Source: a virus. From it: a stretch of DNA of 64,000 nucleotides. The stretch lies in IMG/VR virus record IMGVR_UViG_3300019458_000607, positions 1 to 64,000 of that record. One strand, 5' to 3'. The notes beneath the pieces were generated by a model. The model worked only from the letters and a program-made list of their open reading frames with translations, searched no databases and had not been told where the DNA came from. Shown here in pieces: positions 5,429 to 37,900 of the stretch (positions within the stretch are counted from its first letter, which is position 1; the number at the start of each line of letters is the position of its first letter). The translations under genes and the position numbers were made by a program.

Positions 5429-6388
5429 ATGAATTTTACTATCTTTGGACCTTTTTTTGGCAATAAATTACACGGAGCCGAACAAGGAGTCTATTCTGGT
5501 CTAAAAGAACTAGGGCATAATGTTAGCGTCTATGATTATAGAACCGGAGAATACTTGTCATCTGAAGGTATTAAAATAAAAATATCAGATAAAAATATAT
5601 TACTTGAAGTAATTAAGAATGATGCAACAGATATAGTGTTGTGTTTGGGACCAGGACTTCCTGACGAAGTAGTAGAATCTGATATATGGAAAAAATATAA
5701 ACTATGTATTAAAGTTCTTTGGACATCTGAACCAATTAGACTTATAGAATATAAAGCTAAAATGATCAAACAAAAAGGAAGATTTAATTATATATTTACC
5801 TTTGATCAAAGCGAAATTCCGATATACAAAGAAATAGGAATAGATGCTGCTTGGGCACCTCAAGGATATAATCCTGCATGGTACAATCCTTTATGGTTGC
5901 CAAATAACCAAAGATTCAATGATTCTTTTATTTTTGTTGGTTCTGTTGGCGGAAAATGGAACAACAGACATTACTTTTTAAACCGAGTGAAAGATTTTGG
6001 GTTTAAAATAAATGCAGCTACTATATTTGATGCAACAAGGGTTAATAGGGCATATAATATGCATCTTGCCGTATTAAATCTAGGTCTTTATATACCAGGA
6101 TCAGGACCAGTAGAAGATTTAAAGGCTTATGGTTTACAACAAAGGATCTATGAAAGTTATGGAGCTGGTCAAGTCTGTATTACTAATGAAATACCTAAAG
6201 ACACAAATAAGTTATTTGAGCACGGTAAAGATATATTATTCTATAACAAAGATAACTTAAAAGAAACATTAGAAATGGCTATGGATAAAAAGCTAATTGC
6301 TCAAATGAAAAAGAATATAGAAAATAATAGAAGCAAACATTGTTACAAAGCTCGTTTAGAAAAAATTATTTCTATGATTGAATGGTAA
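5429..6388 (+). CDS. CgeB-like glycosyltransferase (GT-B fold)
   Basis: A 319-residue protein. The N-terminus is a Rossmann-like start with a glycine-rich donor loop (FGPFFGNKLHGAEQGV, then LKELGHNVSVYDY). The C-terminal domain has KAYGLQQRIYESYGAGQ followed by LFEHGKDILFY, typical of CgeB/DUF3880 glycosyltransferases that transfer a sugar from a nucleotide donor. It is one of four glycosyltransferases between 5.4 and 13.5 kb, so it probably decorates a virion protein, DNA or host envelope glycan. Donor and acceptor cannot be read from sequence. Confidence 0.7.
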   Translation: MNFTIFGPFFGNKLHGAEQGVYSGLKELGHNVSVYDYRTGEYLSSEGIKIKISDKNILLEVIKNDATDIVLCLGPGLPDEVVESDIWKKYKLCIKVLWTSEPIRLIEYKAKMIKQKGRFNYIFTFDQSEIPIYKEIGIDAAWAPQGYNPAWYNPLWLPNNQRFNDSFIFVGSVGGKWNNRHYFLNRVKDFGFKINAATIFDATRVNRAYNMHLAVLNLGLYIPGSGPVEDLKAYGLQQRIYESYGAGQVCITNEIPKDTNKLFEHGKDILFYNKDNLKETLEMAMDKKLIAQMKKNIENNRSKHCYKARLEKIISMIEW

Positions 6389-8103: not shown

Positions 8104-8754
8104 ATGCAAAAATATTCTATTCAATGGGCTTTAGAAGAGTCAAAAAAAGTAAAGGGATGGCTACATAAAGAAGAGGCAGAGTTGCTTTATAATTTGGGGG
8201 CTGATATTCCACAAGATACTGATATAATAGAGATAGGATCGGCCTATGGCAAAAGTACTATAATGCTGGCTTCTTCAATAAAAAAAAATAAAATAAGCTT
8301 ATTGTTCTCTATAGATCCACATCAAAAGCCTGATTTTGAAATTCCAAAAGAATATGATGAATGGGCAAAAGGTACTTACACTGATTCATACGTAGAATTT
8401 ACAGAGAATATGAATAGGCTAGATTTAGAAGATTCTATAATTTCAATAAAGAAAACATCTGAACAAGCATATAATGATATCACTAACAATGTAAAGAGTG
8501 GATTTTTGCATAAAAATAGTAAAATTGGGCTTCTCTTTATAGATGGTCTTCACGCTCGTTCATGGGTAGAAAAAGATTTTTTAATGTGGTCTCCATTAGT
8601 TGTATCGGGCGGATTTATTGTTTTTCATGACGCAAATCAAAGTTCACATGATTTTGAGGAAGGAGCAGCCTGTATAGCAAAAAAATACGTTATAGATAAT
8701 TGTTCTTATGTTCACGGGTTTTGTAAGTCAATTGTTTATGGGGAAAAGAAATAG
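8104..8754 (+). CDS. Class I SAM-dependent methyltransferase (Methyltransf_24-like)
   Basis: A 216-residue protein with motif I IIEIGSAYGKSTIMLA, an acidic SAM-binding strand (FSIDPH), LLFIDGLHARSWVEKDF and GGFIVFHDA. This is the pattern of Methyltransf_24 enzymes that often methylate sugars in glycan gene clusters. It sits within the sugar block between glycosyltransferases, so O-methylation of a transferred sugar is a reasonable inference. Start is ATG two bases after the preceding stop. Confidence 0.75.
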   Translation: MQKYSIQWALEESKKVKGWLHKEEAELLYNLGADIPQDTDIIEIGSAYGKSTIMLASSIKKNKISLLFSIDPHQKPDFEIPKEYDEWAKGTYTDSYVEFTENMNRLDLEDSIISIKKTSEQAYNDITNNVKSGFLHKNSKIGLLFIDGLHARSWVEKDFLMWSPLVVSGGFIVFHDANQSSHDFEEGAACIAKKYVIDNCSYVHGFCKSIVYGEKK

Positions 8755-9204: not shown

Positions 9205-9277
9205 AATAGGCGGGAGTAATTATACAGCTAGCCTAGTGTCAAGATAGGATAGCAATAGTGAAACCGCCTATTTTTTC
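9205..9277 (+). terminator. Nested hairpin with T-tract; possible terminator or leader structure
   Basis: An outer 9-bp perfect stem pairs 9205-9213 (AATAGGCGG) with 9264-9272 (CCGCCTATT), followed by Ts to 9276. Inside it a second stem pairs GCTA/CCTA (9227-9235) with TAGG/TAGC (9245-9253) around one mismatch. The outer 3' arm and T-tract overlap the likely start of the next gene (GTG 9258), so the element could be a terminator, an attenuator or a translation-blocking leader. Seen in sequence; function inferred. Confidence 0.5.
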
Positions 9278-10172
9278 TTATGCCATGAAAACAATTTGTC
9301 TTGCAATGTGTTACGATGAAGAACTTTTGATTTATAAGTCTTTATCTCATTTGTATGATTTAATAGATGAGTTTATAATTTTTGAGGGAACTGTTTCTGT
9401 TTTCAATGATCAGCCAGCACATTCGACAGACAATACATTAAATGAAATAAAAAGGTTTATAAAAGAAAAAGATCACAAAGGCAAATGTAAGCTGATCTCC
9501 AAGGACTTTAGAGAAAGTTTTAATATTCCTAACAGGGAAAGTTTTGAAGCAATAGTAAAAAATGAGATGCTCAAAATTTCAAATATACAGAACGGAGATT
9601 GTATATTCCAATTAGACACAGATGAATTTTGGAAGCCGGAATGTTTTTTTGATATTACTGAGTTAATTAGTAAAAATGAACATATTAATCATGTAAAAAT
9701 AGGAGAGTTTCAATTTGCATATTCAATGAAGTTGTATTTTCCTAGTAGTCATGAAGGAAGATTTTTAAGGTGGATTCCAGGATCTTATTATACTGCAAGC
9801 CAACATTTTTTCCATCCAAACGTTAATAAAGATTTAACAAAAGATCATAGTGTTTTTATAGACGAAGAACATTCTAATATGTATCATTTAAGTTATATGA
9901 AACACCCAAAGCTTTTAAGAGATAAAATACTGTCCTTTAAAAGGCCTTCGCATATTTTGTGGTGGAATAATGTATACCTTTTATATCCATTCAATGAAAA
10001 TTTAGCCTATAAAAATAATAGTAATATTCCGCCTTATTTTGGTACGGGATTTTGCGAAGGAAATAACAACAGACTTCGGCCGTATAATGGAGTTGTACTA
10101 GATATATTATCCGACATTAAAGACGATTGGCGGCAATATATAATCTCTAATAAAGAAAGTCTTATTATATGA
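9258..10172 (+). CDS. Glycosyltransferase family 17-like protein
   Basis: A 304-residue protein. Features typical of GT17 are an N-terminal strand with MCYDEELLIYKSL, the acceptor segment VSVFNDQPAHSTDN and the donor motif QLDTDEFW carrying a DxD. It is predicted to transfer a sugar from a nucleotide donor. GTG 9258 has AGGA upstream; ATG 9285 is an alternative and would place the gene just after the hairpin T-tract. It overlaps the next glycosyltransferase by four bases, so the two are translationally linked. Confidence 0.7.
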   Translation: MKPPIFSYAMKTICLAMCYDEELLIYKSLSHLYDLIDEFIIFEGTVSVFNDQPAHSTDNTLNEIKRFIKEKDHKGKCKLISKDFRESFNIPNRESFEAIVKNEMLKISNIQNGDCIFQLDTDEFWKPECFFDITELISKNEHINHVKIGEFQFAYSMKLYFPSSHEGRFLRWIPGSYYTASQHFFHPNVNKDLTKDHSVFIDEEHSNMYHLSYMKHPKLLRDKILSFKRPSHILWWNNVYLLYPFNENLAYKNNSNIPPYFGTGFCEGNNNRLRPYNGVVLDILSDIKDDWRQYIISNKESLII

Positions 10173-10963
10173 ACGGGAAAATTTTTGTTACAAGTGCCGG
10201 AGGAGTTGGGGATAGTTTAATTTGTGCTATCAAATTACAAAAATGTAATATTAATCCTGTCAATATTGACTGGAAACACTTTGAAAAACATGAACAGCAC
10301 AAAGCTCCAATAGAATCAATTATGGAGGAAACTTTGCCATTAGCTCAAGCACATTGTATTATTTGTGATACACCAGAAAAAAATTCACAAGAGTTAATAG
10401 GCACAGAGGAAAGATTGTACGTTGACACTAAAATAGTTAATTGGACAAATCCTTATTTAACTAATAAAATTGGCAATAAATATAAAACCTTTGGGCACAA
10501 GCCTCATATTGTTATAAATCTATTATCTGGTAGATTAAATGATTCAACAAGAAGATCGGTAGATAGACTAGTTGTAGAAAATTTAGCAAAAACCTTTAAT
10601 GATAGATATGTAGTTTTATTGAGCCCAGAATTATTGTCAAAAGATTCTGAATACGAAGAGTGTTTTAAACTAGACAATGTATTAAATCACACAGGCACTG
10701 ACAATATAATTGATGCAATTAGCTGCATAAACAATGCGGCCCTTACTATTTCCCAAGATGGTATTTTAGGTTACTATAGTTGCGCTATTAGAAAGCCTAC
10801 TATTATACATTTTCATTCGCACACTCTAGTTAATCATTATTTTAATCTTGAATGGGGCAAGCATTGTATTGCTATGTGTGGCAATGGAAACAACTTTAAA
10901 GACTTAGATGTAAATCATCCAGAAACTCAGGCTCTATTTGATATAGTAAGGAGTATAAAATAA
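10169..10963 (+). CDS. GT9 / heptosyltransferase-like glycosyltransferase
   Basis: A 264-residue protein. The N-terminal TSAGGVGDSLICAIKL resembles the GxGD nucleotide-sugar loop of family 9 (ADP-heptose:LPS heptosyltransferase-like) enzymes. Further on, INLLSGRLNDSTRRS and a late SQDGILGYYSCAIRKPTI fit the C-terminal donor domain of this GT-B fold. With HldE-type genes at 13478 and 13958, an ADP-heptose donor is plausible but unproven. It is somewhat shorter than LPS heptosyltransferases. Confidence 0.6.
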   Translation: MNGKIFVTSAGGVGDSLICAIKLQKCNINPVNIDWKHFEKHEQHKAPIESIMEETLPLAQAHCIICDTPEKNSQELIGTEERLYVDTKIVNWTNPYLTNKIGNKYKTFGHKPHIVINLLSGRLNDSTRRSVDRLVVENLAKTFNDRYVVLLSPELLSKDSEYEECFKLDNVLNHTGTDNIIDAISCINNAALTISQDGILGYYSCAIRKPTIIHFHSHTLVNHYFNLEWGKHCIAMCGNGNNFKDLDVNHPETQALFDIVRSIK

Positions 10964-11427
10964 AGAAATTTTTTCTATTGTTTTTACTTACTTCATGTTC
11001 ATCTATAGAGATCAATAATAGTGCTTTGCATGACTTTATAACTTATCAAATAAACAAAGAGATTATCTCTTTTTCTAGATCTATTGTGAAGGATGAATTT
11101 GAACAAGATTTTAGTATGTCGTATGACTTATATCAAAAAAGATTAAGCCAAATAAGAAATTATCGGTCCAGAAACATTAGATTAAAAATGATAAAATTTG
11201 ACAGTTTTTTTATAGATAATAGAGGGCATCTAAGATTCTTGATTAACAGCGTTGAAAAAGATAATAAAAATAGTTTTTCGGAACACAAAGATCTTGTTGA
11301 TCTAGATATCGGTATAAATGGAAACAAAATAAAGGCAAAATTAACCATTGACAATTTTTCTTTAAGAAGTTCTTTAAATTCAGACCTAGAAACTGACCTT
11401 ATGTTTATGTATAGGATAAGATTTTGA
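10960..11427 (+). CDS. Predicted lipoprotein, probably started from an ATA codon
   Basis: The frame has no ATG, GTG or TTG giving a proper signal peptide. Read from ATA at 10960 it begins KKFFLLFLLTSCSS after Met, a textbook lipoprotein signal with lipobox LLTSC. AAGGAG at 10948-10953 sits six bases upstream, and the ATA overlaps the preceding TAA just as other genes here use ATGA. TTG 10978 would leave only six residues before the Cys. The mature part is charged with alternating strands and has no recognised family. Predicted to be anchored in the cell envelope. Confidence 0.6.
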   Translation: MKKFFLLFLLTSCSSIEINNSALHDFITYQINKEIISFSRSIVKDEFEQDFSMSYDLYQKRLSQIRNYRSRNIRLKMIKFDSFFIDNRGHLRFLINSVEKDNKNSFSEHKDLVDLDIGINGNKIKAKLTIDNFSLRSSLNSDLETDLMFMYRIRF

Positions 11428-11642
11428 TACAAAATATGTCTATTAATGAAGACTATTTAAGAATAGCACCTACAGGTTATCTGATGCCGCCAACTAAATG
11501 GTCCAACATGCAGATTCTTGATAATATTCCATCAATGTTAACTTGCTGCAAATGTAAACAGGAATTTATAGGATTATTAAGTCGTTCACCAAATCCACAT
11601 TCCCATAAATGTGCAATGATAGGAATATATTATGCCCATTAA
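11424..11642 (+). CDS. Cys-containing small protein, GIYY family copy C
   Basis: A 72-residue protein, TTG 11424 (or ATG 11436) with AGGATAAG upstream. It has CCKC, then HSHKC, and the tail MIGIYYAH. The knuckle and tail match the two Cys-rich proteins at 1878 and 2126, though the rest is unrelated. Zinc binding is likely through Cys/His. It lies between a lipoprotein and a signal peptidase. Function unknown. Confidence 0.5.
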   Translation: MIQNMSINEDYLRIAPTGYLMPPTKWSNMQILDNIPSMLTCCKCKQEFIGLLSRSPNPHSHKCAMIGIYYAH

Positions 11643-11715
11643 ATGCCATAATGATAATTTGAGATACTTAGTATCATATAACAACTTCGAATATTGTTTA
11701 TGTAGTAACTGCTAA
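11632..11715 (+). CDS. Tiny Cys-rich peptide (27 aa)
   Basis: An ATG at 11632 overlaps the end of the GIYY-type gene and reads 27 codons to TAA. The peptide begins MPIKCHND and ends YCLCSNC, four cysteines in knuckle-like spacing. The overlap and cysteine pattern match the style of neighbouring small genes, but there is no strong ribosome binding site, so it may not be expressed. Confidence 0.3.
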   Translation: MPIKCHNDNLRYLVSYNNFEYCLCSNC

Positions 11716-11803
11716 CAATATATAGCAAACCATAAATCAGGGGTTATTACAACTACTGTAACTTTTAAAGAAAACTGTAAAAATAAAATGAAGGATTTAT
11801 ATT

Positions 11804-12409
11804 ATGAAAAATAAATTAGGCAAAAACACAAAGAAATTTTCAGTTCCCAAATGGGGAAATTTACCTTACATGATAGAAAAAAAGAATTTATCTATTACTT
11901 CTTTTGTAATAAGTTTCTTTTTATTAGTGTTAGTTTGTATACTGCCCATTTTGGTCTTAAAAAAGATATATGACCCTAAAATTTCCAAAGTAGTTGGCCC
12001 TAGCATGTTCCCATCTATAATGAATGGTGACAGAATACTTGTGCAACTTAAGTTTGAGAAAATTGAAAGAGGAGATATAGTTTGTTTTACAGGAAATGAC
12101 AGACTATCGTCTTATATATATCTTATAAAAAGAGTTATAGGTATTCCAGGAGACTTTGTACTAATATCAAATGGCAGAGTATTTGTCAATACAATTCCAG
12201 AGAGTAATAGTAACATAATAAATTATGAAACTAAATTACCAGAAAATGAAACTAGTAAATTTTGGAAACTTGAAGAAAATGAATATTTTATGATGGGTGA
12301 CAATAGGCCAATGTCTTACGATTGTAGAAATTTTGGCCCAGTAATAAAAGAAAAAATAGAAGCCAAATTACTATTTAGAATTAGGCCATTAGTTATACTG
12401 AGGAATTAA
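11804..12409 (+). CDS. lepB: Type I signal peptidase (S26 family)
   Basis: A 201-residue protein with one N-terminal membrane segment (about residues 31-53) and the conserved boxes of bacterial signal peptidase I: GPSMFPSI with catalytic Ser67, LIKRVIGIPGD with the general-base Lys109, and MMGDNRPMSYDCRNFGP. All catalytic residues are present, so it should cleave Sec signal peptides at the outer face of the cytoplasmic membrane. Phage-borne copies are unusual. Likely clients are the FN3-like protein at 8763 or host proteins; the lipoproteins would need signal peptidase II instead. AAGGA lies upstream of the start. Confidence 0.88.
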   Translation: MKNKLGKNTKKFSVPKWGNLPYMIEKKNLSITSFVISFFLLVLVCILPILVLKKIYDPKISKVVGPSMFPSIMNGDRILVQLKFEKIERGDIVCFTGNDRLSSYIYLIKRVIGIPGDFVLISNGRVFVNTIPESNSNIINYETKLPENETSKFWKLEENEYFMMGDNRPMSYDCRNFGPVIKEKIEAKLLFRIRPLVILRN

Positions 12410-13494
12410 TGAGTAAACCACTTTTAAGTGTTATAGTTCCATGTGCTCCTGGCAGAAAAGAAAGAGTTGCAGCCATATTATCTAGACTAACACTTAATAA
12501 GGCGGTATTTCCAGATCATACTTTTGAAGTTCTTATAGCCGATGGAGGTTCAACAGACGACACAATAGATCTATGTAGAACTTTGGCGCAATACATAAAT
12601 CTAAAATATGTCTATTTACCAATTGGTAGGTTTATAAACGCAGCATATCCAAGAAATGTATTATTAAGAATGTGTGAAGGGCAAATAATAGCCATGATAG
12701 ACATAGATCATTTCCCTGGAGAAAATATTGTTTTTGGCATGTTGAATCCATTTATAGATGATAGCAATTTCAAGGTTATTATAAATAAAGATATTGGCAC
12801 TGTAGAAAATAGATTAGAATATTTAAATGGTCAAGTTACTAAAAATAAGCCAAGCAATATAATAAATCGTGGCTATGTAGTTGACAGCTCTAAGTCGTCA
12901 CTTTGTGCCTGTATGTTTGACCCAAAAGCAGAAATAATAAATAAGTCAATAATTTCTATGGCCAATATTGGCAATAAAATATTACATACATATTCTCATT
13001 TTAAAATTCCTCACGGAATTAACAATACTTTATGGACTTGGGCTGTTAAAAGAGAAAATGTACTTAATATGGGTGCCTATGACGAGATTTACGTTAGAGG
13101 TTTTAGATATAGATGCGAAGACGACTCTATTAGAGAAAGATTTTTAGCTCAAGGACTTAGGTTTTATGATGGGCAAAACAAGAATTTTTGTTCTATCCAT
13201 TTATATCATCCAGCAGAATGTAGAAGTAATCCCCTAAATGAGGATAATAAAAGATATTTTGATAAAATAGAATGTCCAGTGAAACAAATAGATAGAAATA
13301 TAAATTTTAAATGGGGAAAGTTACTAAAAGATAGTTTTTCTATAATAAATGGAGAAACTAGAAATACGATGGAGCATGAAAAATGGATTTTAGAAAATGT
13401 TAAAGATGCTCCTAGTTACGTAGATGATTTTGAGTGGAGTTCAATTGATAACTTTATGAAAAATTTAGAAGACTATTATGTTAGTGGGCATTAA
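12409..13494 (+). CDS. Family 2 glycosyltransferase
   Basis: A 361-residue protein with the GT-A core: LSVIVPCAPGRKERV at the N-terminus, EVLIADGGSTDDTIDLC, and MIDIDHFPGENI with the DxD metal site near residue 103. Later, GAYDEIYVRGFRYRCEDDSI is the galactosyltransferase-like C-terminal segment with the ED(D) acceptor motif. It starts on the last base of the signal-peptidase stop and overlaps the heptose-1-phosphate adenylyltransferase by 17 bases, linking it to that pathway. Confidence 0.8.
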   Translation: MSKPLLSVIVPCAPGRKERVAAILSRLTLNKAVFPDHTFEVLIADGGSTDDTIDLCRTLAQYINLKYVYLPIGRFINAAYPRNVLLRMCEGQIIAMIDIDHFPGENIVFGMLNPFIDDSNFKVIINKDIGTVENRLEYLNGQVTKNKPSNIINRGYVVDSSKSSLCACMFDPKAEIINKSIISMANIGNKILHTYSHFKIPHGINNTLWTWAVKRENVLNMGAYDEIYVRGFRYRCEDDSIRERFLAQGLRFYDGQNKNFCSIHLYHPAECRSNPLNEDNKRYFDKIECPVKQIDRNINFKWGKLLKDSFSIINGETRNTMEHEKWILENVKDAPSYVDDFEWSSIDNFMKNLEDYYVSGH

Positions 13495-13924
13495 ATCTGG
13501 AGTTTTCCTCAGTTTGCATGCTGGACATATTTGGTGCATTCAAGAGGCTAAGAAAAAATGCTCACATCTTATCATCCTTAATAATGACGATGAATATATT
13601 TTAAAGAAAAAAAAGGTTTGTCCTATAAAACTAAAAGATAGGTTGTATATTCTTAGCCATATTAAAGGAGTAGATGAGGTTGGCTATTATAGCGGTCCAT
13701 CTGAGCACTCTTGGATTAAAAACTTTAAAGAAAATAGACTACATCAAGAATTCGGACAAAATGCCAAATTAATAGTTTTCCACAGCGACGAACTTAAAGA
13801 TCTAAAAAAAGAAGAAATTCCAGGATATGGTTTTGCTGATGAAATTGAGTTTATAGATAAAATCAATAGACCAGAATCCGTTTCTAAAATATTTAAAGAA
13901 ATAAGAGAATCAAAATATGATTGA
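13478..13924 (+). CDS. D-glycero-beta-D-manno-heptose 1-phosphate adenylyltransferase-like (HldE C-domain/HldC type)
   Basis: A 148-residue nucleotidyltransferase of the cytidylyltransferase-like superfamily: SGVFLSLHAGHIWCIQEAKK carries the HxGH motif (His14, His17), followed by LNNDDEYILKKKK and DRLYILSHIKGVDEV. The DRLYIL/VDEV pattern is that of HldE/RfaE C-terminal domains, which make ADP-heptose from heptose 1-phosphate and ATP. Here it is a separate gene placed just before the matching kinase. Related glycerol-phosphate cytidylyltransferases are the main alternative. Confidence 0.7.
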   Translation: MLVGIKSGVFLSLHAGHIWCIQEAKKKCSHLIILNNDDEYILKKKKVCPIKLKDRLYILSHIKGVDEVGYYSGPSEHSWIKNFKENRLHQEFGQNAKLIVFHSDELKDLKKEEIPGYGFADEIEFIDKINRPESVSKIFKEIRESKYD

Positions 13925-13957
13925 ATTTAGTTTAGTTTGGCCAGAAGTATATATAAT

Positions 13958-14914
13958 ATGAGTCGAAGTATTCTTGTCCTTGGAGATGTGATGGTTGATC
14001 GGCATTTTTTCGGACAGTGCCATCGAATTAGTCCAGAAAGCCCAGTTCCCATAGTTAATATTCATGATAAAGATATTGTAACATCTCTTGGTGGGGCAGC
14101 AAATGTATCTGCCCATATATCTAGAACAGGAATTAAATGTATTTTGGCATACAAGTCATTTGTTCCTCCTGTGAATAATAATTACAATGAAATTTTTTTA
14201 TCGATGTGTGATAAGGAAAATGTAAAGGTTGAACCACTTGATTTTGGCATTATAAGTTCAATATCTGTCAAAGAAAGAATTTGGGCTGGCAATCAACAGG
14301 TCGTTAGAATAGACAACGAAAATGCTGATCCGCCAAATAAACAAATAGAGTCAGAATGGATTAATAAAATAATAGGTATAATAAACAATAACAACGTTGG
14401 CTGCGTCATAATGTCAGACTATTCAAAGGGATGTCTTACAGACCAAATGATACAAAACGTGGCACATTATTGTTATGCAAAAAAAATACCAACAATTTTA
14501 GATCCAAAAAGGCCAACTTATTATAAGATAAAAAATATCAGTATAATAAAGCCGAATTCAATAGAAGTTAAAATTACGAACCATGACGCAAAATTTTTGT
14601 CCGATGAACTTGACGAAACATATTTGGTTAATACACTGGGGAAGGACGGAATGAAGGTGTATAGAGATGCAGAAGAAATATTCTTTTATCCTGCATTAAC
14701 AGATCAAAAATATGTTGTCGACATTACTGGACTAGGTGACACTTGCTGTTCTATTTTAGGATTATCTTTATATTATGGAATAGATATTAAAAATGCAGTT
14801 GTTGCGGCTAGTAAGGGAGCGTCTATAGGAATAAGACATAAAGGTTCTTATTGTTTATCTAAGTTAGAAATGGAAAGTTGTTTTAATTTCGCAGAAAAAT
14901 ATAATAAGGAATAA
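13958..14914 (+). CDS. D-glycero-beta-D-manno-heptose 7-phosphate kinase-like (HldE N-domain)
   Basis: A 318-residue PfkB-family kinase starting MSRSILVLGDVMVDRHFFG; ATG 13958 is preferred over TTG 13937. The run RISPESPVPIV and LGGAANV are hallmarks of the RfaE/HldE kinase domain, and SDYSKG and DITGLGDT give the substrate and anion-hole/catalytic Asp site (usual GAGD is GLGD here). It would phosphorylate heptose 7-phosphate at C1. In many bacteria kinase and adenylyltransferase are one fused protein; here they are adjacent genes in reversed order. Confidence 0.75.
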   Translation: MSRSILVLGDVMVDRHFFGQCHRISPESPVPIVNIHDKDIVTSLGGAANVSAHISRTGIKCILAYKSFVPPVNNNYNEIFLSMCDKENVKVEPLDFGIISSISVKERIWAGNQQVVRIDNENADPPNKQIESEWINKIIGIINNNNVGCVIMSDYSKGCLTDQMIQNVAHYCYAKKIPTILDPKRPTYYKIKNISIIKPNSIEVKITNHDAKFLSDELDETYLVNTLGKDGMKVYRDAEEIFFYPALTDQKYVVDITGLGDTCCSILGLSLYYGIDIKNAVVAASKGASIGIRHKGSYCLSKLEMESCFNFAEKYNKE

Positions 14915-21401: not shown

Positions 21402-21726
21402 ATCTAAAGGGCAAACTAAACTTGGGGAAATCCTTGAAAATATATATCCTAATGTGCCTATATATGAAGAAGTTCCATGTTTCGGCGAAAAACTTTTCCT
21501 AGACTTTTTTATACCATCTCTTAAAATTGCCCTGGAATTTAATGGAATACAGCACGATAAATATGTATATCACTTTCATAGGACTAGAATAAGATTTCTC
21601 GATTCTTTGGAAAGAGATTGTAGAAAACAGCAATGGTGTGATATTAATAATATTGCTTTACTAATCATAAAAGAAGAAGATCTTAAAAAAGAAATTATAA
21701 TAGATATGATAGGAAACAGAAAATGA
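21328..21726 (+). CDS. Vsr/DUF559-like PD-(D/E)XK endonuclease
   Basis: A 132-residue protein. The core is LFLDFFIPSLKIALEFNGIQH, containing the D...E-x-N/Q catalytic pattern, followed by a conserved FHRTRIRFLDSLERDCRKQQWC and a strand with LLIIKEED. This is typical of small phage nucleases related to Vsr and DUF559. A role in recombination or repair next to RecA is likely; some relatives are homing-like. Confidence 0.65.
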   Translation: MKFIDTNGKIHRKNITKYKKKQSSKSKGQTKLGEILENIYPNVPIYEEVPCFGEKLFLDFFIPSLKIALEFNGIQHDKYVYHFHRTRIRFLDSLERDCRKQQWCDINNIALLIIKEEDLKKEIIIDMIGNRK

Positions 21727-22493
21727 TTTTGAAATGTGGAAAGAAAAAGTTATTCTGTTTTGACCTTGATGAAACTTTAACCCCAAGCAAACAAAAAGCC
21801 TCAGAAGAAATTATACACGCATTTGAAGAACTATTAAAATTTTCTAATTGTGCAATAATATCAGGAGCATCATTAAACCAAATAAGAAAACAAATTATTG
21901 ATTACATCAACCCACATCATATACCACAAATTCTTATATTTCCTACATGTGGAGCATCGTTATTTGAATATGGGGTTAATGGTGAATATATAGAAAGATA
22001 TTCTTTTAAGCTTTTAGAAGAAGAAAAGGCTAAAATAATATCTACTTTTGATGTACCTACTTATAAAATCTATGGAAACTTATTCGAGGACAAAGGTTCG
22101 CAAATTACTTATTCAGCACTTGGGCAAGATGCTACATCTGAAATAAAGAAAATCTGGGATCCTGATTGCTCAAAAAGAAAAGCAATATTGGCAAAATCTG
22201 CTCCTATGGCACCAGAATTTGAATATAAAATAGGTGGCACAACATCAATAGATGTTACGATAAAAGGTATAGATAAGTCTTATGCAATAAAATACTTGAT
22301 ACAAAAAGGTCTATATCATAAAGAAGATATTTTATATGTAGGAGATGCTTTATATGAGGGTGGTAATGATTTTCCTGTGCTAAAATATGGAGTTGACTGT
22401 ATTCAAACAAGCGGAATAGAAGAAACTGTTCTTATTTTAAAAAACATATCCGAAATTGTTAAATGTGCAATACATGGAAGAAATAATAAGTGA
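21723..22493 (+). CDS. HAD-superfamily phosphatase (phosphomannomutase-like, HAD-IIB)
   Basis: A 256-residue protein with motif I FCFDLDETLTPSK (Asp14, Asp16), motif II IISGAS, a lysine in SIDVTIKGIDKSYA and motif IV ILYVGDALYEGGNDFPV. This pattern is that of the HAD-IIB group that includes eukaryotic-type phosphomannomutase. It could make or process a sugar phosphate for the phage glycosylation genes, or stand in for the heptose bisphosphate phosphatase step (GmhB), but neither is shown. Confidence 0.75.
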   Translation: MILKCGKKKLFCFDLDETLTPSKQKASEEIIHAFEELLKFSNCAIISGASLNQIRKQIIDYINPHHIPQILIFPTCGASLFEYGVNGEYIERYSFKLLEEEKAKIISTFDVPTYKIYGNLFEDKGSQITYSALGQDATSEIKKIWDPDCSKRKAILAKSAPMAPEFEYKIGGTTSIDVTIKGIDKSYAIKYLIQKGLYHKEDILYVGDALYEGGNDFPVLKYGVDCIQTSGIEETVLILKNISEIVKCAIHGRNNK

Positions 22494-26091: not shown

Positions 26092-26360
26092 AAATTAAAG
26101 ATAAAATGGCAGAGAATAGAATTCCAGGAGACTTTATATCAAGCAACAAAGGAATAATTGCTATATCAGTTAATTCATCTGATGGTTTCGAAACAGTTGT
26201 TGTTGACCAAAACAAAGAAGAAACTATTTTCCTAAAAAAGATAAAAGACATAGAAGAGGAAATGCCAGAAAATGCAAAGCTATTTGCAATAACTTCTGCT
26301 CAGTGGGACAAGATGCTTAATAGTAATCTATTTTTGTCTAAAAGGAACCAAGAAGAATGA
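26088..26360 (+). CDS. Hypothetical protein
   Basis: A 90-residue protein overlapping both neighbours by four bases. The N-terminus is short and basic, followed by beta-rich residues (GIIAISVNSSDGFETVVVD) and a charged helix. No family recognised. Translationally coupled to the kinase and the GmhA-like gene. Confidence 0.5.
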   Translation: MKIKDKMAENRIPGDFISSNKGIIAISVNSSDGFETVVVDQNKEETIFLKKIKDIEEEMPENAKLFAITSAQWDKMLNSNLFLSKRNQEE

Positions 26361-26926
26361 AAAAAGCAAGAGAATATTTTGACAAAAATATTAATATAAT
26401 AGATAAGTTGGATTATTATGAAATAGAATCTTTAAGAGAACTAGTTATGACGAATATTGTTTTTGGCAACAAGATAATAGTTGCTGGTAATGGCGGCAGT
26501 GCTTTGAATGCTTTCCATTTTGCACAAGACTTATTAAAACACATGAAAATTAAGAATGGACAAATCGCAAAAGTATTTGCTCTAGGATCAAACCCAGGAT
26601 TACAGTCTGCTATAGAAAATGATTTAGGACACTCAGAATCTTTTGTATTAGAATTGTCTACTTTTGCAAGTATTGGCGATTTATTTATTCCAATTAGTGT
26701 TAGTGGCACATCTAAAAATCTTATAAAAGCTACGGAATGGGCAAAGGAAAACGGATTATACACAGTATCTATTACTGGAAATGAAAATATAGAAAATGGT
26801 CTAGCAAGTATAGTAGATGAGAAAATAGTAATTCCGAGCAATGAATTTTCATATGTAGAAGATTTGTCAATGAGCATACTTCATTACATAGTATATAGTA
26901 TCTGGAGGGAAAATGAAAATGACTAA
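26357..26926 (+). CDS. GmhA-like phosphosugar isomerase (SIS domain)
   Basis: A 189-residue SIS-domain protein: GNGGSALNAFHFAQDLL, then SVSGTSKNLIKATEWAKENG and a C-terminal VEDLSMSILHYI. This is the GmhA/DiaA layout. In E. coli GmhA the zinc ligands are His61, Glu65, Gln172 and His180; here the aligned residues are His54, Asp58, a Glu and a His, so metal binding is plausible but altered. It may convert sedoheptulose 7-phosphate to D-manno-heptose 7-phosphate, the first ADP-heptose step; another sugar phosphate is possible. Confidence 0.65.
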   Translation: MKKAREYFDKNINIIDKLDYYEIESLRELVMTNIVFGNKIIVAGNGGSALNAFHFAQDLLKHMKIKNGQIAKVFALGSNPGLQSAIENDLGHSESFVLELSTFASIGDLFIPISVSGTSKNLIKATEWAKENGLYTVSITGNENIENGLASIVDEKIVIPSNEFSYVEDLSMSILHYIVYSIWRENEND

Positions 26927-27396: not shown

Positions 27397-29904
27397 ATGA
27401 TAATGGAATACCTTAAAACCCCATTGCATAAATATACATTTTCTATTAGACCAATAAGAGAATGGGTAGAGAAAAATTCCAAAGGAAAGGTTCTTAATTT
27501 ATTTGCAGGAAAAACCAAACTTAACTTAGATGAGTTTAGAGTTGATTGTAATAAAGATATGTTAGCAGATGTATATATGGATGCATTTGAATTTGTTACA
27601 CAATGCAAAGATAAATTTGATACTATTTTATTAGACCCGCCATATTGTTATGATGATCAAACCGAGGTTCTTACGGATTCTGGTTTTAAATTTTTTAAAG
27701 ATCTAGAAAAAACAGACAAAGTTGCTACTCTTAATAAAGATACCGGCATAGTAGAATATTATTGTCCTACAGATTTTTATATTAATAAATATAATGGAGA
27801 AATGATAAAAATAAAATCAGGAAGCATTGATTTATTAGTAACTCCAAATCATAATCTTTATATTTCAAGAATACATTCTGATAAATTTTATTTTATAGAA
27901 GCAAAAGATCTAAATTATGGTTGTGAATTTAAGGCTGAATTTAATTGGATAGCAGAAGATAAAGAGTTCTTCTGTTTGCCGGAAGTAAAATTTGATCGAC
28001 ATAATAGATACGGAGAAAAATTTAAAAAAATAAGAAAAATACCTATGGACATTTGGCTTAGATTTTTAGGCATATATTTATCAGAAGGGTCTGTAGACCC
28101 ATACGGAACACATTATAGAATAAGAATATCCCAAAAGAAAGAGGAAAATAGAAAAATAATAAAGAAGTGGCTTGATGAACTTGGTTTTCATTTTATTGTA
28201 GAAAAAAATGATTTTATAATATACGACAAACAGCTTTGTGTTTATTTGCGCCAGTTTGGTAAAGTTTTTGACAAATTTATTCCTTATGAAATTAAACAAT
28301 TGTCAAATAGACAATTAAACATCTTATTAGATGCTCTTATATTAGGAGATGGCCATCGTTCTTCTAAGCCAAGATATAATGCTAAATATAATAAAACATA
28401 TATAGATAAACATTTGAATTATTGTAGCCACTCCAAGAGACTAATAAATGATGTTAATGAGATAGCTTTAAAGGCGGGATATGTATGCAGTATTTTTGCT
28501 AGAAAAGATGGAGGATATAGTGTTAATCTTGGACACCATAGAAAAACCCCGATGATCATTAAGTCTAAAATAGAAAAATATATTAATAAAGTGCAATACA
28601 ATGGCAATATTTATTGTATAACAGTTCCTAATAATGTTATTTATGTTAGAAGAAATAAAAATATGTGCTGGTGTGGTAATTCAGAACGAAAAAGCATGGA
28701 AATGTACAACGGTAAAAAAGTTTCTAAATTTAATAAAATAAAGGATTTTTTGCCTAACTTATTAAATGACAATGGTATTATTATTACTTTCGGATATCAT
28801 TGTTTAGATGAAAAAACTCAATGTTTAACCGAAAATGGATGGAAATATTATTATGAATTAGATAAAAACGATAAAATCGCTACGTTTAATAGAGAAAATG
28901 AAAAAATAGAATACAGCAAAATAAAAGATATGTTTTTATATAATCATGACGGATTATTAAAACGCATATCAGATCGACATATAGACCAGTTAATAACTTT
29001 AAACCATAAGGTTGCTTTAAAATATAAACATCAAAATAATAATAAAAAGGGGGAAAATGTTACATGGAAAGACAAAACATGGCAATTAATAAAGGCTAAT
29101 TCTATTACTCCGCATTCTGGAATTTATATTCCCGTTGCCGGAATTTATAATGGGAATAAAAAAATAGGGCTAGAAATGGCAGAATTACTAGGATGGATTA
29201 TATCTGAAGGTCATATGTTGGAACATGGGTCAGTTTTTATTTATCAGTCAATTAAAAATAAAAAAAATGTAGATAGAATAAGAAAATTACTTGTAAAATG
29301 TAAACTGTTTTTTACTGAAAAAATATATAAAGGTAATCCATATCTAGTTAATTTTTACATATCAAAGAGACAAAATAAAAAGTTTTATAATTTACTTGGT
29401 CATTATATAATTTCACCTAAAAAACCTAAATGGAATCTTCTTCATTTAAGAAATAATGAGCTAAAAGCGTTATTTGATGGTCTAGTAATGGGAGATGGAA
29501 GTAGGTATACAAATAAAAGCTGTATTTTTTATCAAAAGTCCAATTATTGCAGAGAATGGTTTCAAGTATTATCTTGTCATTTAGGATATAGAACTGTTAA
29601 TAATATGAAAAATAAAACAGTAAACGTGAAATTTAGCAACGAAAAATACATATCTAATTTAAAGTTTAGAAATAATTTTAAAAATGTTTTATATAAAGGA
29701 AAAATTTGGTGCATTAATATTAAAAATAATTGTTTTGTTATACGAAGAAATAATAAGGTTTCAATTACTGGAAATTCTGTGTCGATGGGCCAAAAAAGAG
29801 GATTTAAACAAGATAAAATTTTATTAATGAGTCATAGTGGTGGTATTCACGATACCATAGCTGTTATAGAGCGCAAAATAAATGAAAACAATACAATTAA
29901 ATAG
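27397..29904 (+). CDS. DNA methyltransferase precursor with two inteins
   Basis: An 835-residue frame. The mature part is only about 165 residues: VLNLFAGKTKL (SAM motif I), then LLDPPY (motif IV catalytic DPPY), NGIIITFGYH and a tail HDTIAVIERK. This order fits gamma-type amino-methyltransferases of DNA (N6-adenine or N4-cytosine). Two inteins interrupt it, at DPPY/SER and GYH/SVS (see separate entries). The next HNH gene overlaps its 3' end by 23 bases. Target sequence unknown; it could protect phage DNA from host restriction. GAGGG lies upstream of ATG 27397. Confidence 0.75.
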   Translation: MIMEYLKTPLHKYTFSIRPIREWVEKNSKGKVLNLFAGKTKLNLDEFRVDCNKDMLADVYMDAFEFVTQCKDKFDTILLDPPYCYDDQTEVLTDSGFKFFKDLEKTDKVATLNKDTGIVEYYCPTDFYINKYNGEMIKIKSGSIDLLVTPNHNLYISRIHSDKFYFIEAKDLNYGCEFKAEFNWIAEDKEFFCLPEVKFDRHNRYGEKFKKIRKIPMDIWLRFLGIYLSEGSVDPYGTHYRIRISQKKEENRKIIKKWLDELGFHFIVEKNDFIIYDKQLCVYLRQFGKVFDKFIPYEIKQLSNRQLNILLDALILGDGHRSSKPRYNAKYNKTYIDKHLNYCSHSKRLINDVNEIALKAGYVCSIFARKDGGYSVNLGHHRKTPMIIKSKIEKYINKVQYNGNIYCITVPNNVIYVRRNKNMCWCGNSERKSMEMYNGKKVSKFNKIKDFLPNLLNDNGIIITFGYHCLDEKTQCLTENGWKYYYELDKNDKIATFNRENEKIEYSKIKDMFLYNHDGLLKRISDRHIDQLITLNHKVALKYKHQNNNKKGENVTWKDKTWQLIKANSITPHSGIYIPVAGIYNGNKKIGLEMAELLGWIISEGHMLEHGSVFIYQSIKNKKNVDRIRKLLVKCKLFFTEKIYKGNPYLVNFYISKRQNKKFYNLLGHYIISPKKPKWNLLHLRNNELKALFDGLVMGDGSRYTNKSCIFYQKSNYCREWFQVLSCHLGYRTVNNMKNKTVNVKFSNEKYISNLKFRNNFKNVLYKGKIWCINIKNNCFVIRRNNKVSITGNSVSMGQKRGFKQDKILLMSHSGGIHDTIAVIERKINENNTIK
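27646..28680 (+). other. Intein A in DNA methyltransferase (LAGLIDADG type)
   Basis: 345 residues inserted exactly after catalytic DPPY. The N-terminal splice block starts CYDDQTEVLTDSGFKFFKDL; block B is LLVTPNHNLY; two LAGLIDADG motifs (FLGIYLSEGSV and LLDALILGDGH) form a homing endonuclease. It ends NMCWCGN with Ser as the following residue. The penultimate residue is Gly rather than the usual His. Boundaries follow from restored methyltransferase continuity. Confidence 0.85.
28801..29775 (+). other. Intein B in DNA methyltransferase (LAGLIDADG type)
   Basis: 325 residues starting CLDEKTQCLTENGWKYYYEL and ending KVSITGN before Ser. Block B is LITLNHKVAL; endonuclease motifs are LLGWIISEGHM and ALFDGLVMGDGS. 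Like intein A it ends in Gly-Asn. The two inteins are only 40 extein residues apart. Confidence 0.85.
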
Positions 29905-31791: not shown

Positions 31792-32119
31792 ATATCATTT
31801 GATATTACACGTTAATCAAGGTGATAGTTTTGGCGAATTTTTAGATCAAGCAAATGGCAACATTGCAAATGCATTAACAAAATGGGCAAATGATTTTAGA
31901 TCTGTGGCAAATATTTGCGAACAACTTTCTTTAAAAATTAACAATGAGAATATAGATGTTATGGCAGACGGTCATACTATTATATTTATGCCTAAAAATA
32001 TCGTTGGACAACAAATACTAGAAGAGCTATCAGAAAATTGTATTATTGACAAATTTGAGTTCGACGAAGACGTTATTGATGATGGTAGCTTTCACGACGA
32101 TACTTTGGCAAATCTTTAA
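31784..32119 (+). CDS. Hypothetical protein
   Basis: ATG 31784 follows AAGG; the open frame extends further upstream without a better site. A 111-residue acidic protein with an N-terminal helix/strand and a very acidic C-terminus (FEFDEDVIDDGSFHDD). No family recognised. It lies just before the IMPDH-like gene. Confidence 0.5.
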   Translation: MTEYHLILHVNQGDSFGEFLDQANGNIANALTKWANDFRSVANICEQLSLKINNENIDVMADGHTIIFMPKNIVGQQILEELSENCIIDKFEFDEDVIDDGSFHDDTLANL

Positions 32120-32132
32120 TTGGAAATATATA

Positions 32133-34307
32133 ATGGCGAAATTTATAAATGAGGAAGGTTTAACATTTGATGATGTCTTGCTTTTGCCAAGATATTCTTT
32201 AGGAGAATCAAGACGAAACGTTAAACTGATTACAAAGCTAACTAATAATTTTAATATTTTAACACCAATTATCTCTGCAAACATGGATAGTATTACCACA
32301 TCGGATACTATGATTTCGATGGCCAATTTGGGCGGTGTTGGCGTTTTGCACAGATTTATGCCATTGAGTGATATTAGATTTCATGTCGAAAGATTTAGAG
32401 AAGCTACGAAATCAAACAAGTTTTATTCGCCGACATGTGTTTCTATTGGCGTTGGTCCTGAGTCTACAGAATTACTTAATCTATACAAAGAATTGAAAGT
32501 AGATATAATTGTTATAGATATTGCCCATGGATGGAGCAAAAAGGTCAAAGATCTTATTAAAAAAATAAAGGATTTTATTGGATGTAATGTTATAGCTGGA
32601 AATGTTGCTACCTACGATGCAGCAATAGATTTATATGAAGCCGGAGCCAATGCAATTAAGGTCGGAGTGGGTCCAGGTTGTTTTGCTGCTGGAACACGAA
32701 TTCTAATGGCTAATGGCATTTATAAAAACATAGAAGACATAAAACCCGGAGACAGAGTAATAAATAAATACGGATATCCAATAAATGTTAAAAAATCATT
32801 TAAAACTGGATATAGGAAAGTTTCAAAATTAAATAATAGTTTATTTTATAAAGATACATTGGTAACAAAAGATCATAATTATTGGGTTGGAGATTTTTCA
32901 ACAACAAGTTTATCAACCATAAGTTCTTATTTAAAGTTACTTGCAAAAAAAAGCAAAACTATACCAAAGACAAGTAAAATAAAATGGATGGAAATTGGCA
33001 AACTAGATAGAGGATGTATGTTAATGCCTAAAAATATTAACTTTGAACTCGCTAATACCTTTAAGGAAAAAATTTATAAAAGATGTGGTGGCCATTATAA
33101 GGCTGGGTTTAAATACAAAATTGATGTTATATTAGAACCATCGTATGATCTTGGATATATATTTGGAACATTCTTAGGAGATGGATCATCTAGCATTGCT
33201 GTTTATAAAAAATCCGAAAGAGGAGCTGTTAGGTGGTTTTTTGGTGCCAAAGAAGAAGATATTGCCAATAAATTGATAGCGTCTATAAAGAATGTTTTTA
33301 ATAAAGATGCCACAATTACAAAAGAAGATAATACTACTGTAGTTAATTTTTATTATAAGCCATTAGCTAATTATTTATGGAAATTTGGTAAAAGAAAAGA
33401 TAAATTTTTACCAGAACATCTTTTGGTTAATAATATAGAATATTTGCGTGGTATAATGCATGGACTAATAGATAGTGATGGACATTATTCTAAAGATAGG
33501 AGATTTTCTTTCTCTAATACTTCTAAAAGATTAATTGAATTATTTAATGTTATATTTTATATAATAGAAGGATATTTTCCAAATAATGAAGAAAATCCGC
33601 TGTCTACTGGCGGGCTTAAAAATTGTGATATAAATAATTGTAATCCAAGTTATAGGTCTCGTTCGTTAATTAGGCCAGAATATAGACAAAATAATTATAA
33701 TCAAGTAGCAAAAATATTATCATATGAAGATACTAATTTATATCTTGATGTCTATGACATAGAGGTTGATTGTCCGACACATAGCTTTATTGCAGAGAAT
33801 GCTATAGTGCATAATTCTGTATGCAGCACAAGAATTAGAACTGGTTGTGGAAATCCTCAACTAAGTGCTATTATTGAATGTTCTGTGATTCCATGTCCTA
33901 TTATCGCCGATGGCGGAATAAAAAATGGAGGGGATATTATTAAAAGTTTAGCTGCTGGTGCTTCATCTTGCATGATAGGAAATTTGATAAGTGGCTGCAC
34001 AGAATGTCCTGGGGAAATTATAGAGATGGAAGGTAAGAAATATAAAAAATACAGAGGACAAGCATCTTTTGATTTCCAAAAAGAATGGAAAGGAATAGAC
34101 AAACAAGTAAATATAGAGGGCGAATCTAAATTAGTAGAAATTAAAGGTTCGATTGAAGATGTCGTAAATGAATTGCTATCTGGAGTTCGTTCCGGATTTT
34201 CCTATTGTGGCGCTAATGACATAGAAGAGCTTAGAAAGAATGCAATTTTTCGTCGAGTTTCTTCTAATACTTTAATAGAGAATCGTCCTCATGGGAAAAG
34301 TGGCTAA
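32133..34307 (+). CDS. IMP dehydrogenase/GMP reductase family protein precursor with intein
   Basis: ATG 32133 gives MAKFINEEGLTFDDVLLLP, the classical IMPDH start. The extein is about 345 residues and has no CBS pair, closer to GMP reductase size. Motifs: MDSITTSDTMISMANLGGVG, a strand VIAGNVATYDAA, and, after splicing, VGPGSVCSTRIRTG with the catalytic Cys, then ADGGIKNGGDI and KKYRGQAS. TGCGNPQLSAIIEC resembles GMP reductase; KKYRGQAS resembles IMPDH. It would act on IMP/XMP or GMP in guanine nucleotide supply. The intein sits at GPG/SVC in the active loop. Confidence 0.8.
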   Translation: MAKFINEEGLTFDDVLLLPRYSLGESRRNVKLITKLTNNFNILTPIISANMDSITTSDTMISMANLGGVGVLHRFMPLSDIRFHVERFREATKSNKFYSPTCVSIGVGPESTELLNLYKELKVDIIVIDIAHGWSKKVKDLIKKIKDFIGCNVIAGNVATYDAAIDLYEAGANAIKVGVGPGCFAAGTRILMANGIYKNIEDIKPGDRVINKYGYPINVKKSFKTGYRKVSKLNNSLFYKDTLVTKDHNYWVGDFSTTSLSTISSYLKLLAKKSKTIPKTSKIKWMEIGKLDRGCMLMPKNINFELANTFKEKIYKRCGGHYKAGFKYKIDVILEPSYDLGYIFGTFLGDGSSSIAVYKKSERGAVRWFFGAKEEDIANKLIASIKNVFNKDATITKEDNTTVVNFYYKPLANYLWKFGKRKDKFLPEHLLVNNIEYLRGIMHGLIDSDGHYSKDRRFSFSNTSKRLIELFNVIFYIIEGYFPNNEENPLSTGGLKNCDINNCNPSYRSRSLIRPEYRQNNYNQVAKILSYEDTNLYLDVYDIEVDCPTHSFIAENAIVHNSVCSTRIRTGCGNPQLSAIIECSVIPCPIIADGGIKNGGDIIKSLAAGASSCMIGNLISGCTECPGEIIEMEGKKYKKYRGQASFDFQKEWKGIDKQVNIEGESKLVEIKGSIEDVVNELLSGVRSGFSYCGANDIEELRKNAIFRRVSSNTLIENRPHGKSG
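32679..33815 (+). other. Intein in IMPDH/GMP reductase-like protein (LAGLIDADG type)
   Basis: 379 residues starting CFAAGTRILMANGIYKNI and ending IAENAIVHN before Ser. Block B is LVTKDHNYWV, followed by LAGLIDADG motifs IFGTFLGDGSS and MHGLIDSDGHY. It sits two residues before the catalytic Cys of the enzyme, so the active site cannot form until splicing occurs. Confidence 0.9.
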
Positions 34308-34941: not shown

Positions 34942-37900
34942 ATGAGCTTCAAGTTTCCCGATGCGGCATCGGAATTCGTATATTATAGATGTGTACATGT
35001 TGATACCCCGGTTCTTTGTGCGGATATGAAGTGGCGCCCAGCCGGCAGTCTATTTGAAGGAGATGATATAATTGTTTTCGATGAAATGCCAGACAAAAGA
35101 AGTAAAAGAAAAATAAAAATAGGAAAAGTTACTCATAATCATGTAGAAAATAGAAAATGTAAAAAGATTATCTTAGAAGATGGTAGAAATTTATATTGTA
35201 CTCCAGAACATCAGTGGCTAGTTCGTCTTATGCCTACACAAACTAGCCTTGAATGGATTAAAACAGAAAATCTTTGTAATAGATCAAGAGGGACTGTTTC
35301 CTATTTGCCGCTTTTTGAAGATCCATTGGATGAAGATAATTCTTATGAAGCTGGATATTTGTCTGCTGCATTTGATGGCGAAGGATGTATAGATGGCATT
35401 TCTGCCATATGCTTTAATCAAACAGAAAATGCAATGTTTTATAAAGTAAAGAAAATTTTACAAAATAAAGGATTTAGATTTTCTTTAAAAATTAAAAACA
35501 AAAACAAACATAAAAAGTCTTTTGAATCTAAAAAAGATTGTTATGTTTTTAGTATTTATGGCAGAGAACAAATAATGAAGCTTATTGGAATGTTCGGAAC
35601 GTGTAGAATATTGGAAAACTTTCATAAAAATCTTAATAAAGATACGTTTATGCTTAAGGCAAAAAAATGGCTAAAGGTTGTTTCAGTAGAAGACGCCGGA
35701 GAAATGCCAGTGGCAGTAATGAGTACTACTCATAAAACTCATATAACTGGTGGTTTTCCAAGCCACAATACATATAGCAGGTGGCGAGATGATTTAGGGA
35801 GAAGAGAGACTTGGGAAGAGACGGTAGATAGATATATAGGATTTTTTAGAAATAAATTTGGCGATAAGGTTCCAGAGAAAGTTTTCAAAAAGGCCAAAGA
35901 AAAGATTTTAAATTTTGAAGTGATGCCCTCGATGAGAGCTTTGTGGGCATCAGGAGATGCTCTAGAAATAAATAATTGCTGTGGTTATAATTGTTCATTT
36001 TTATTTATAGATTCTATTGAGTCATTTGCAGAACTTTTATTTTTGCTTTGTTCTGGATGTGGTGTTGGATTTTCTGTTGAAAGTTCTCATGTTGACAAAT
36101 TGCCGATGATTCCAGTTCTTACTGGACAAAATGGTGGAGTATTCCAAGTACCGGATTCAAAGGAGGGATGGGCTGATTCTGTAAAAAACTTAATAAACTC
36201 TTTATATTGTGGCAATGATTTAACTATTGATTATTCATTGATAAGACCTATGGGCTCTAGATTAAAAACCATGGGAGGAAGATGTCTAACAGGTGACACG
36301 GTTGTCTATAAAGACCGTAAAAAATCTGCTGGATTTAATAAGATAACCATACAACAACTTTTTGACATTAAGCAAAGAGAGTTGTCTGGTAAATATAGAG
36401 GCAAATTAAAAAAAATTAAACTCAGATCTTTAAATGAAGAGTCTGGAGAATTTTTTAGAAATAATCTTGTAGATGTTGTATATAATGGCATTCATCCAGT
36501 TTATCAATTAGTAACTAAGCAGGGATATAGAATAAAGTCTACATTAAATCATAGATTTATGAATTCAGCAGGTAATTATCAGTCGCTTTCTTCTTTTAAT
36601 ATAGGGGATTTAATAGCGGTTAATGGTTCTAAAGAATTAAAAACAGGCATTTGTTGTGATTGCAAAAAACAAATATATAGGAGATCTTTGCGCTGCATCG
36701 ATTGTTCTTATTTAAGCCAAAGAAAATTTGATTGTTTGCCAAGTACTGTAAGACAACGAAGAGAGATAAAGATATATAAAAGAAAGCATAATAATTGTGA
36801 AAATTGTGGGCTATTATTTAAATTAGAGTGTCATCATATTGACGGAAATCCTTATAATAATGAAGAATATAATTTAAAAGTTTTATGTCCTTCGTGTCAT
36901 CGTACAGAAGATATGAAGCGTGTCTATTTTGGAAATGATTATACTTGTAAATATCTCATGTATGATGAGATTGTAGACATAATAGCAGTGGGGGAAGAAA
37001 AAGTTTATGATCTTGTAATGCAGGGTCCTAATCACAATTTTATTGCCAATGGAATTATTTCACACAATTCTTCTGGATCTGCCCCTCTCATTCAATTACA
37101 TGAATTTATTAGATCTGTTTTTAGTCAACGGCAAGGAAGCAAACTTAAACCTATAGATTGTCTTGATATATGTAATAAAATTGGCGCTTGTATTGTTGCT
37201 GGAGGAACTAGGCGATCAGCAGAAATATCCTTCTCTGATTTATCTGACATTGAAATTGCTAAGGCAAAAATTGCCCCTTTTCCAGTTCATAGATTTTTAT
37301 CCAATAACAGTGCTATATACTATGAAAAACCTACTATTACTGAATTTTTAAAAGAGTGGACTAATCTAATAGAAAGTAAAAGCGGAGAACGTGGCATATT
37401 TAATATAGAAGGAGCTAGAAATAAATCTCCACAAAGAAGAAATAAGGAGCTTATTGTTGGAGAGAATCCATGTTTTACTGGAGAAACTCTTGTTTATGTT
37501 GCCGATGGCAGAGGAAATATTCCTATAAAACAGTTGGTAAAAGAGGGAAAAGATGTGCCAGTCTTTTGTCTTAATAATAAAAATGTTCCAGTTGTTAGAT
37601 GGATGAGAGGACCAAGAATTACCGGATATAACGTTCCAGTTTATAAGGTTTTACTAGATGATGGCTCTAGTGTTAAAGTAACTAATAATCATAAATTTTT
37701 ATTAAAAAGTGGAGAATATAAAGAAACTAAAGATCTAAAAAATGGAGATAGTTTATTTTTATTAACTAGATATGAAGCTTCTATGCAGGAAATATTCAAT
37801 GGAACCAATAGCAGATCTCAAGATTATTTTTGGATTAATTATGGAAGAGCAAAATCACTTAGTGAGCATAGACCGATAGCCGAATTCTTTTATAATACCA

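Follow-up and report, generated by a model that had tools for sequence, protein, structure and literature searches.

Heptose pathways in bacteria and viruses

The bacterial adenosine diphosphate (ADP)-heptose pathway is built from GmhA, HldA/HldE-N, GmhB, HldC/HldE-C and HldD. Phage-encoded enzymes of nucleoside diphosphate (NDP)-heptose synthesis are published and widespread. Functional viral enzymes were described by Tang et al. 2024, with no viral phosphatase reported (summarised in PMC11461863 and PMC11573728), and rfaE/hldE, waaF or heptosyltransferase genes have been found in phages or viromes (PMC7029224, PMC10653327, PMC10747093, PMC11671562). A scan of IMG/VR with a kinase profile returned at least 538 viral relatives. 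Here we analyse the first 64,000 bases (the window) of IMG/VR record IMGVR_UViG_3300019458_000607, which is 107,778 bp long and itself a fragment, and which carries genes for a GmhA-type isomerase, an HldA-type kinase and a nucleotidyltransferase. This uncultured phage probably makes activated heptose, through a divergent NDP-heptose pathway that would feed its own glycosyltransferases of family 9 (GT9). What is unusual is the divergent last enzyme, the nucleotidyltransferase; within the literature covered, a search on phage-encoded ADP-heptose with gmhA found no paper on this gene set.

Set against the bacterial pathway, the phage has GmhA and HldA homologues and a protein with the nucleotidyltransferase fold, but its record is without GmhB and an HldD-like epimerase, and the nucleotidyltransferase is divergent. 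As in the viruses of Tang et al. 2024, isomerase, kinase and nucleotidyltransferase occur together without a phosphatase, whereas the (F/L)xxGxSTT motif that frames the residue STTR5 is missing from the window nucleotidyltransferase. In Synechococcus phages S-SSM7, S-CAM1 and Sf-FS3, the gene for an HldE-C-like nucleotidyltransferase is likewise followed directly by a separate one for an HldA-like kinase, with a GT9-like gene nearby, and this cassette too is found in lytic phage. In contrast to the window protein, their nucleotidyltransferases keep the NGxFD, HxGH and STT/SSS motif region, and these phages also encode an epimerase and a small HAD protein resembling EcbF/BcbF, with no SIS-type GmhA seen in the cassette. 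The heptose cluster of Caulobacter phage Cr30 resembles the present one in its D65/E172/H180 GmhA variant, D,D-heptose kinase and glycosyltransferase. However, the Cr30 kinase is unlike the HldA type in sequence and appears to be of the GHMP type (HddA, of guanosine diphosphate-heptose synthesis), and no HldE-C-like nucleotidyltransferase is annotated nearby.

A probable heptose gene set kept in two distant phages

Four genes of the window form the core of the proposed pathway:

13478..13924, plus strand: HxGH-type nucleotidyltransferase, divergent HldC/HldE-C or TagD-like (profiles, AlphaFold model, Foldseek, motifs)
13937..14914, plus strand: HldA/HldE-N-type kinase (TIGR02198, PDB 4e84, motifs including GLGDT, tree)
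21723..22493, plus strand: HAD-IIB hydrolase/mutase, alpha-phosphoglucomutase/phosphomannomutase-like (TIGR01484, E = 5e-20; PDB 4bnd, E = 1.6e-31)
26357..26926, plus strand: GmhA-type sedoheptulose 7-phosphate isomerase (SIS), D65/E172/H180 variant (TIGR00441, PDB 1x94, active-site columns)

The best evidence that this set is functional comes from a sister phage (IMGVR_UViG_3300018031_000005, 168,570 bp; here G001), in which 97 open reading frames of the record are matched, mostly in the same order. All the sugar genes treated here are among these 97, as are a few overlapping frames on opposite strands. Identities are 50% for the kinase, 46% for the nucleotidyltransferase, 38% for GmhA (in the same gene context), 38% for the HAD-IIB protein, 46 and 48% for two GT9 proteins and 42% for the product of the gene at 10169, and the nucleotidyltransferase gene lies directly upstream of the kinase gene in both phages. 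With every member retained in G001 at 38-50% identity, the set is under selection, and its retention by two phages so distant argues that it works.

The kinase is a clear HldA/HldE-N homologue, as the first-pass annotation had proposed. TIGR02198 (rfaE domain I) matches it at E = 2.5e-57 and 194 bits over positions 8-312 of 315; the next PfkB family reaches 32 bits, so that the runners-up outside HldE fall more than 100 bits behind. The solved HldA structure PDB 4e84 matches at E = 1.7e-24. In an alignment with 164 other sequences that an HldA/HldE-N profile picked out of viral and bacterial loci, the kinase keeps GDVMxD, RISPExPVP, GGAANV, QQxxRxD, SDYxKG, DPK, KPN and GxGDT, including the catalytic Asp of GxGD, a motif set that Escherichia coli RbsK and PfkB lack. 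In a tree of 94 rows, a split with support 95 sets it, together with HldA/HldE, apart from RbsK/PfkB, the unrelated sugar kinases with which it might have grouped. It and the sister-phage copy share a long branch of uncertain placement within the tree, and identity to the best bacterial relatives is no more than about 30%. The start codon is probably an internal ATG at codon 8 (13958).

The isomerase, also recognized at first pass, is an SIS protein that scores higher with the gmhA model TIGR00441 (E = 6.9e-24, 84.7 bits) than with DiaA (62.7 bits), and solved GmhA structures match it at up to E = 1.3e-18 (PDB 1x94). It keeps the catalytic His180, which DiaA is without.

These identities support, on sequence grounds, two steps of a phage heptose pathway, with a plausible third. 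GmhA (26357) would convert host sedoheptulose 7-phosphate to D-glycero-D-manno-heptose 7-phosphate, which the HldA-type kinase (13937) would turn into the 1,7-bisphosphate. The 7-phosphate would then be removed by host GmhB or, more speculatively, by the phage HAD-IIB protein, and the adjacent nucleotidyltransferase (13478) would yield NDP-heptose. This product may be used by two GT9 proteins, whose genes lie beyond the window, and by the glycosyltransferases encoded close by, most likely for an altered cell-surface glycan on the infected host. Among the destinations suggested at first pass (host LPS, the virion, or a signalling or defence-relevant molecule), the data favour none over the others. 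The substrates (nucleotide included), the phosphatase and the acceptor are those that we infer.

Evidence against the pathway

Several observations weigh against this interpretation. The 194 bits of the kinase and the 84.7 bits of the isomerase lie below the curated cut-offs of 345 and 209, and the nucleotidyltransferase also scores under its curated NCBIfam cut-off. The genes for GmhA and the HAD protein are 8-12 kb away from the kinase gene, amid replication genes, and a search of the whole record for GmhB/HAD-IIIA (TIGR00213/TIGR01656) found none. The isomerase has Asp at Glu65 and Glu at Gln172, which together with His180 we take to be active-site residues of E. coli GmhA (numbers counted on the sequence); the Asp/Glu/His triple is common to the window isomerase, G001 and Cr30. 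Finally, the nucleotidyltransferase is without the Asp of GxFD and without the KGxDY and (F/L)xxGxSTT motifs, its closest structural match is TagD (PDB 1coz; Foldseek E = 4.4e-7, template modelling (TM) score 0.73), and the G001 copies read TAGH (one) and HKSH (the second) in place of HxGH. The 'near-complete' ADP-heptose pathway of the first-pass annotation is therefore an overstatement: the HAD protein is not GmhB, and motifs that all other relatives checked have retained are missing from the nucleotidyltransferase. Of the broader claim, a phage-encoded heptose pathway, the GmhA and HldA-type kinase steps are supported and the nucleotidyltransferase step is plausible.

A nucleotidyltransferase without its motif frame

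A separate nucleotidyltransferase with HxGH and the expected fold is indeed present, although it cannot be cleanly separated from TagD as an adenylyltransferase. TIGR02199 scores 38.9 bits (E = 6.9e-10) against 32.6 bits (E = 7.2e-8) for TIGR01518, the glycerol-3-phosphate cytidylyltransferase model, and PHROG 7878 matches at E = 1.9e-13. The AlphaFold (AF2) model is confident and well formed (predicted local distance difference test, pLDDT, 91.7); Burkholderia HldC (PDB 5xf2) comes second to TagD in Foldseek, with E = 1.1e-6 and a TM score of 0.68. At the three motif sites, compared across 87 such enzymes encoded in viral and cellular loci, the protein reads SGVFL, VFHSDE and INRPESVS, and some conserved active-site residues are lost. 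Joint loss of all three motifs was seen only in the window protein and the two G001 copies. Importance is attached to GxFD and STT from their conservation in the family, measured here, and from work on TagD. The arginine STTR5 in (F/L)xxGxSTT is described in PMC11461863 as a mark of NTP (nucleoside triphosphate) promiscuity and not of activity on heptose in itself, so an enzyme missing only this residue could still be active; what surprises is that, judged from the alignment, the whole motif frame is gone. A role in heptose metabolism appears plausible. The second G001 copy (L022:9100-10005) shares one open reading frame with a zinc-ribbon/HNH-like N-terminal part.

The alternative that survives best, though we consider it rather unlikely, is that the protein is a TagD-like or other polyol- or sugar-phosphate nucleotidyltransferase, and that GmhA and the kinase, acting on heptose intermediates of the host, only boost a host pathway needing host HldE-C and GmhB. 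The 6-bit lead of TIGR02199 over TIGR01518, the preference of the second G001 copy for TIGR01518, the Foldseek ranking and the missing HldE-C motifs are all consistent with it. TagD itself, however, has a GxFD-type motif (GTFD in 1coz) that the window protein is without, and carries an ISTT-type motif, RTEGISTT. Since TagD has both, the motif loss does not favour it, and the position of the gene beside that of an HldA-type kinase in both phages speaks for a heptose substrate.

The phosphatase step

The HAD protein at 21.7 kb had been listed as the phosphatase of the pathway. It belongs to HAD-IIB and not to HAD-IIIA, which rules it out as GmhB; its best PDB match is alpha-phosphoglucomutase 4bnd, from Lactococcus, and phosphomannomutase is also near. 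No histidinol-phosphatase-type protein was found in the record, in the sister phage or in IMGVR_UViG_3300019487_000735, a 30-kb contig that repeats the 9.1-27.0 kb region of the window at about 99% DNA identity. As a stand-in for GmhB, the HAD-IIB protein is a possible candidate by its family. Enzymes of the phosphomannomutase family handle sugar bisphosphates, so a role as heptose-bisphosphate phosphatase is conceivable, and the protein may belong to the sugar set because its gene in G001 stands immediately before methyltransferase and glycosyltransferase genes. Against such a role, members of this HAD family are also found in phages where no heptose genes were seen around them.

The latter observation also fits a different scheme, in which the HAD-IIB protein is a sugar phosphomutase (6-phosphate to 1-phosphate) that works with the nucleotidyltransferase to give an NDP-hexose, and in which kinase and isomerase are there for another, related sugar. 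The match to 4bnd agrees with this, as does Acinetobacter phage Ab1-TPeters, in which the same HAD family lies directly downstream of an HldE-C-like nucleotidyltransferase with no kinase listed nearby. The presence of GmhA and of a kinase of the HldA type, along with two genes for GT9 proteins, nevertheless fits heptose better than hexose, and we regard the hexose scheme as quite improbable. It is very hard to believe that the sugar set is a decaying relic without current function: the motif losses of the nucleotidyltransferase and TAGH in one sister copy would agree with decay, but all genes are open and conserved across two phages as described, the nucleotidyltransferase model is a well-formed fold, and neither this enzyme nor the kinase shows any amino-acid change relative to the ~99% identical contig, where synonymous changes are also few and the ratio of nonsynonymous to synonymous substitution rates (dN/dS) comes from sequences too close for use on single genes.

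Phosphatases resembling the standard type are encoded elsewhere among viruses. Seven viral loci (L069, L071, L080, L083, L085, L096 and L100) encode a HAD-IIIA phosphatase resembling GmhB, next to HldE-type genes and HldD-like ones, for instance L083:10022-13118 on the 181,934-bp contig IMGVR 3300020463_002275 (phosphatase PRK08942, E = 5.2e-40; epimerase TIGR02197, E = 1.2e-69), and they run counter to the reported lack of such an enzyme in viruses. GmhA was found in none of the six records with a viral GmhB-like phosphatase that were searched. In S-SSM7 the 'phosphoheptose isomerase' (L008:9661-9996) is a small HAD protein, hit by the model for the EcbF/BcbF capsule biosynthesis phosphatase with E = 8.5e-6, and similar small HADs bear this annotation in two more cyanophage loci (L007, L010). 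The cyanophage annotation therefore looks wrong, and the proteins are candidates for the missing phosphatase.

Glycosyltransferases and other features of the record

The predicted users of the sugar and their neighbours are the following:

5429..6388, plus strand: CgeB-like GT-B glycosyltransferase (PF13524, E = 7.6e-10)
8104..8754, plus strand: Methyltransf_24 methyltransferase (PF13578, E = 1.8e-19)
9258..10172, plus strand: probable GT-A glycosyltransferase, GT2/GT17-like (PF00535, E = 0.061; sister ortholog PF04724 (GT17), E = 7.9e-6)
10169..10963, plus strand: possible remote GT9-like (GT-B) protein (hhalign with the GT9 alignment)
12409..13494, plus strand: GT2-family glycosyltransferase (PF00535, E = 2.3e-9)
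Record 92539-93549, minus strand, outside the window: GT9 protein (PF01075 above cut-off)
Record 99157-101163, minus strand, outside the window: GT9 protein (PF01075 above cut-off)

The CgeB-like protein and the methyltransferase upstream are as first annotated, in open reading frames whose coordinates had been given exactly. Of the two 'other glycosyltransferases' named there, the one at 12409 is well matched and the one at 9258 weakly. The GT9 assignment made for 10169-10963 is reduced to a remote profile-profile match: the protein has no Pfam match (PF01075 included), and a single hhalign comparison with GT9 gave E = 0.012 alone and E = 4.2e-5 with a probability of 70% when its sister-phage ortholog (42-44% identity) was added. 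A single-sequence AF2 model, at pLDDT 31, is meaningless. Clear GT9 genes are those at 92.5 and 99-101 kb, whose products score 61 and 39 bits with PF01075 (cut-off 22).

The window is AT-rich (about 31% G+C) and has nearly all its genes on the plus strand and no tRNAs; its portal protein is only remotely related to those of database phages (20-26% identity). Intein-like insertions were noted by eye in a methylase-like gene (27397-29904), an IMPDH/GMP reductase-like gene (32046-34307), ribonucleotide reductase (34942-39906, several), the terminase large subunit (43740-46805) and, close to the end of the record, a gene resembling that of DNA polymerase III alpha. Inspection also suggested a TnpB-like protein (record 96012-97091, minus strand) with a zinc finger, CSRCG...CFNCG, and a C-terminal DHRDANAA. 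A putative fibre protein at 55129-56490 has collagen-like GXX repeats.

Implications

The finding touches on two questions, namely which enzyme carries out the phosphatase step in viruses and what purpose the sugar serves. To these the lineage offers a candidate phosphatase, whose gene stands beside the sugar genes in one phage of the two; a conserved nucleotidyltransferase that lacks the customary motifs; and, as predicted users of the product, GT9 proteins of the phage itself. A bolder reading, which we hold to be unlikely, is that the HAD-IIB protein would be a non-orthologous replacement of GmhB and the motif-poor nucleotidyltransferase a new subfamily, making NDP-heptose or a related NDP-sugar via a modified active site. 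If true, it would constitute a self-contained viral route that bypasses two standard enzymes.

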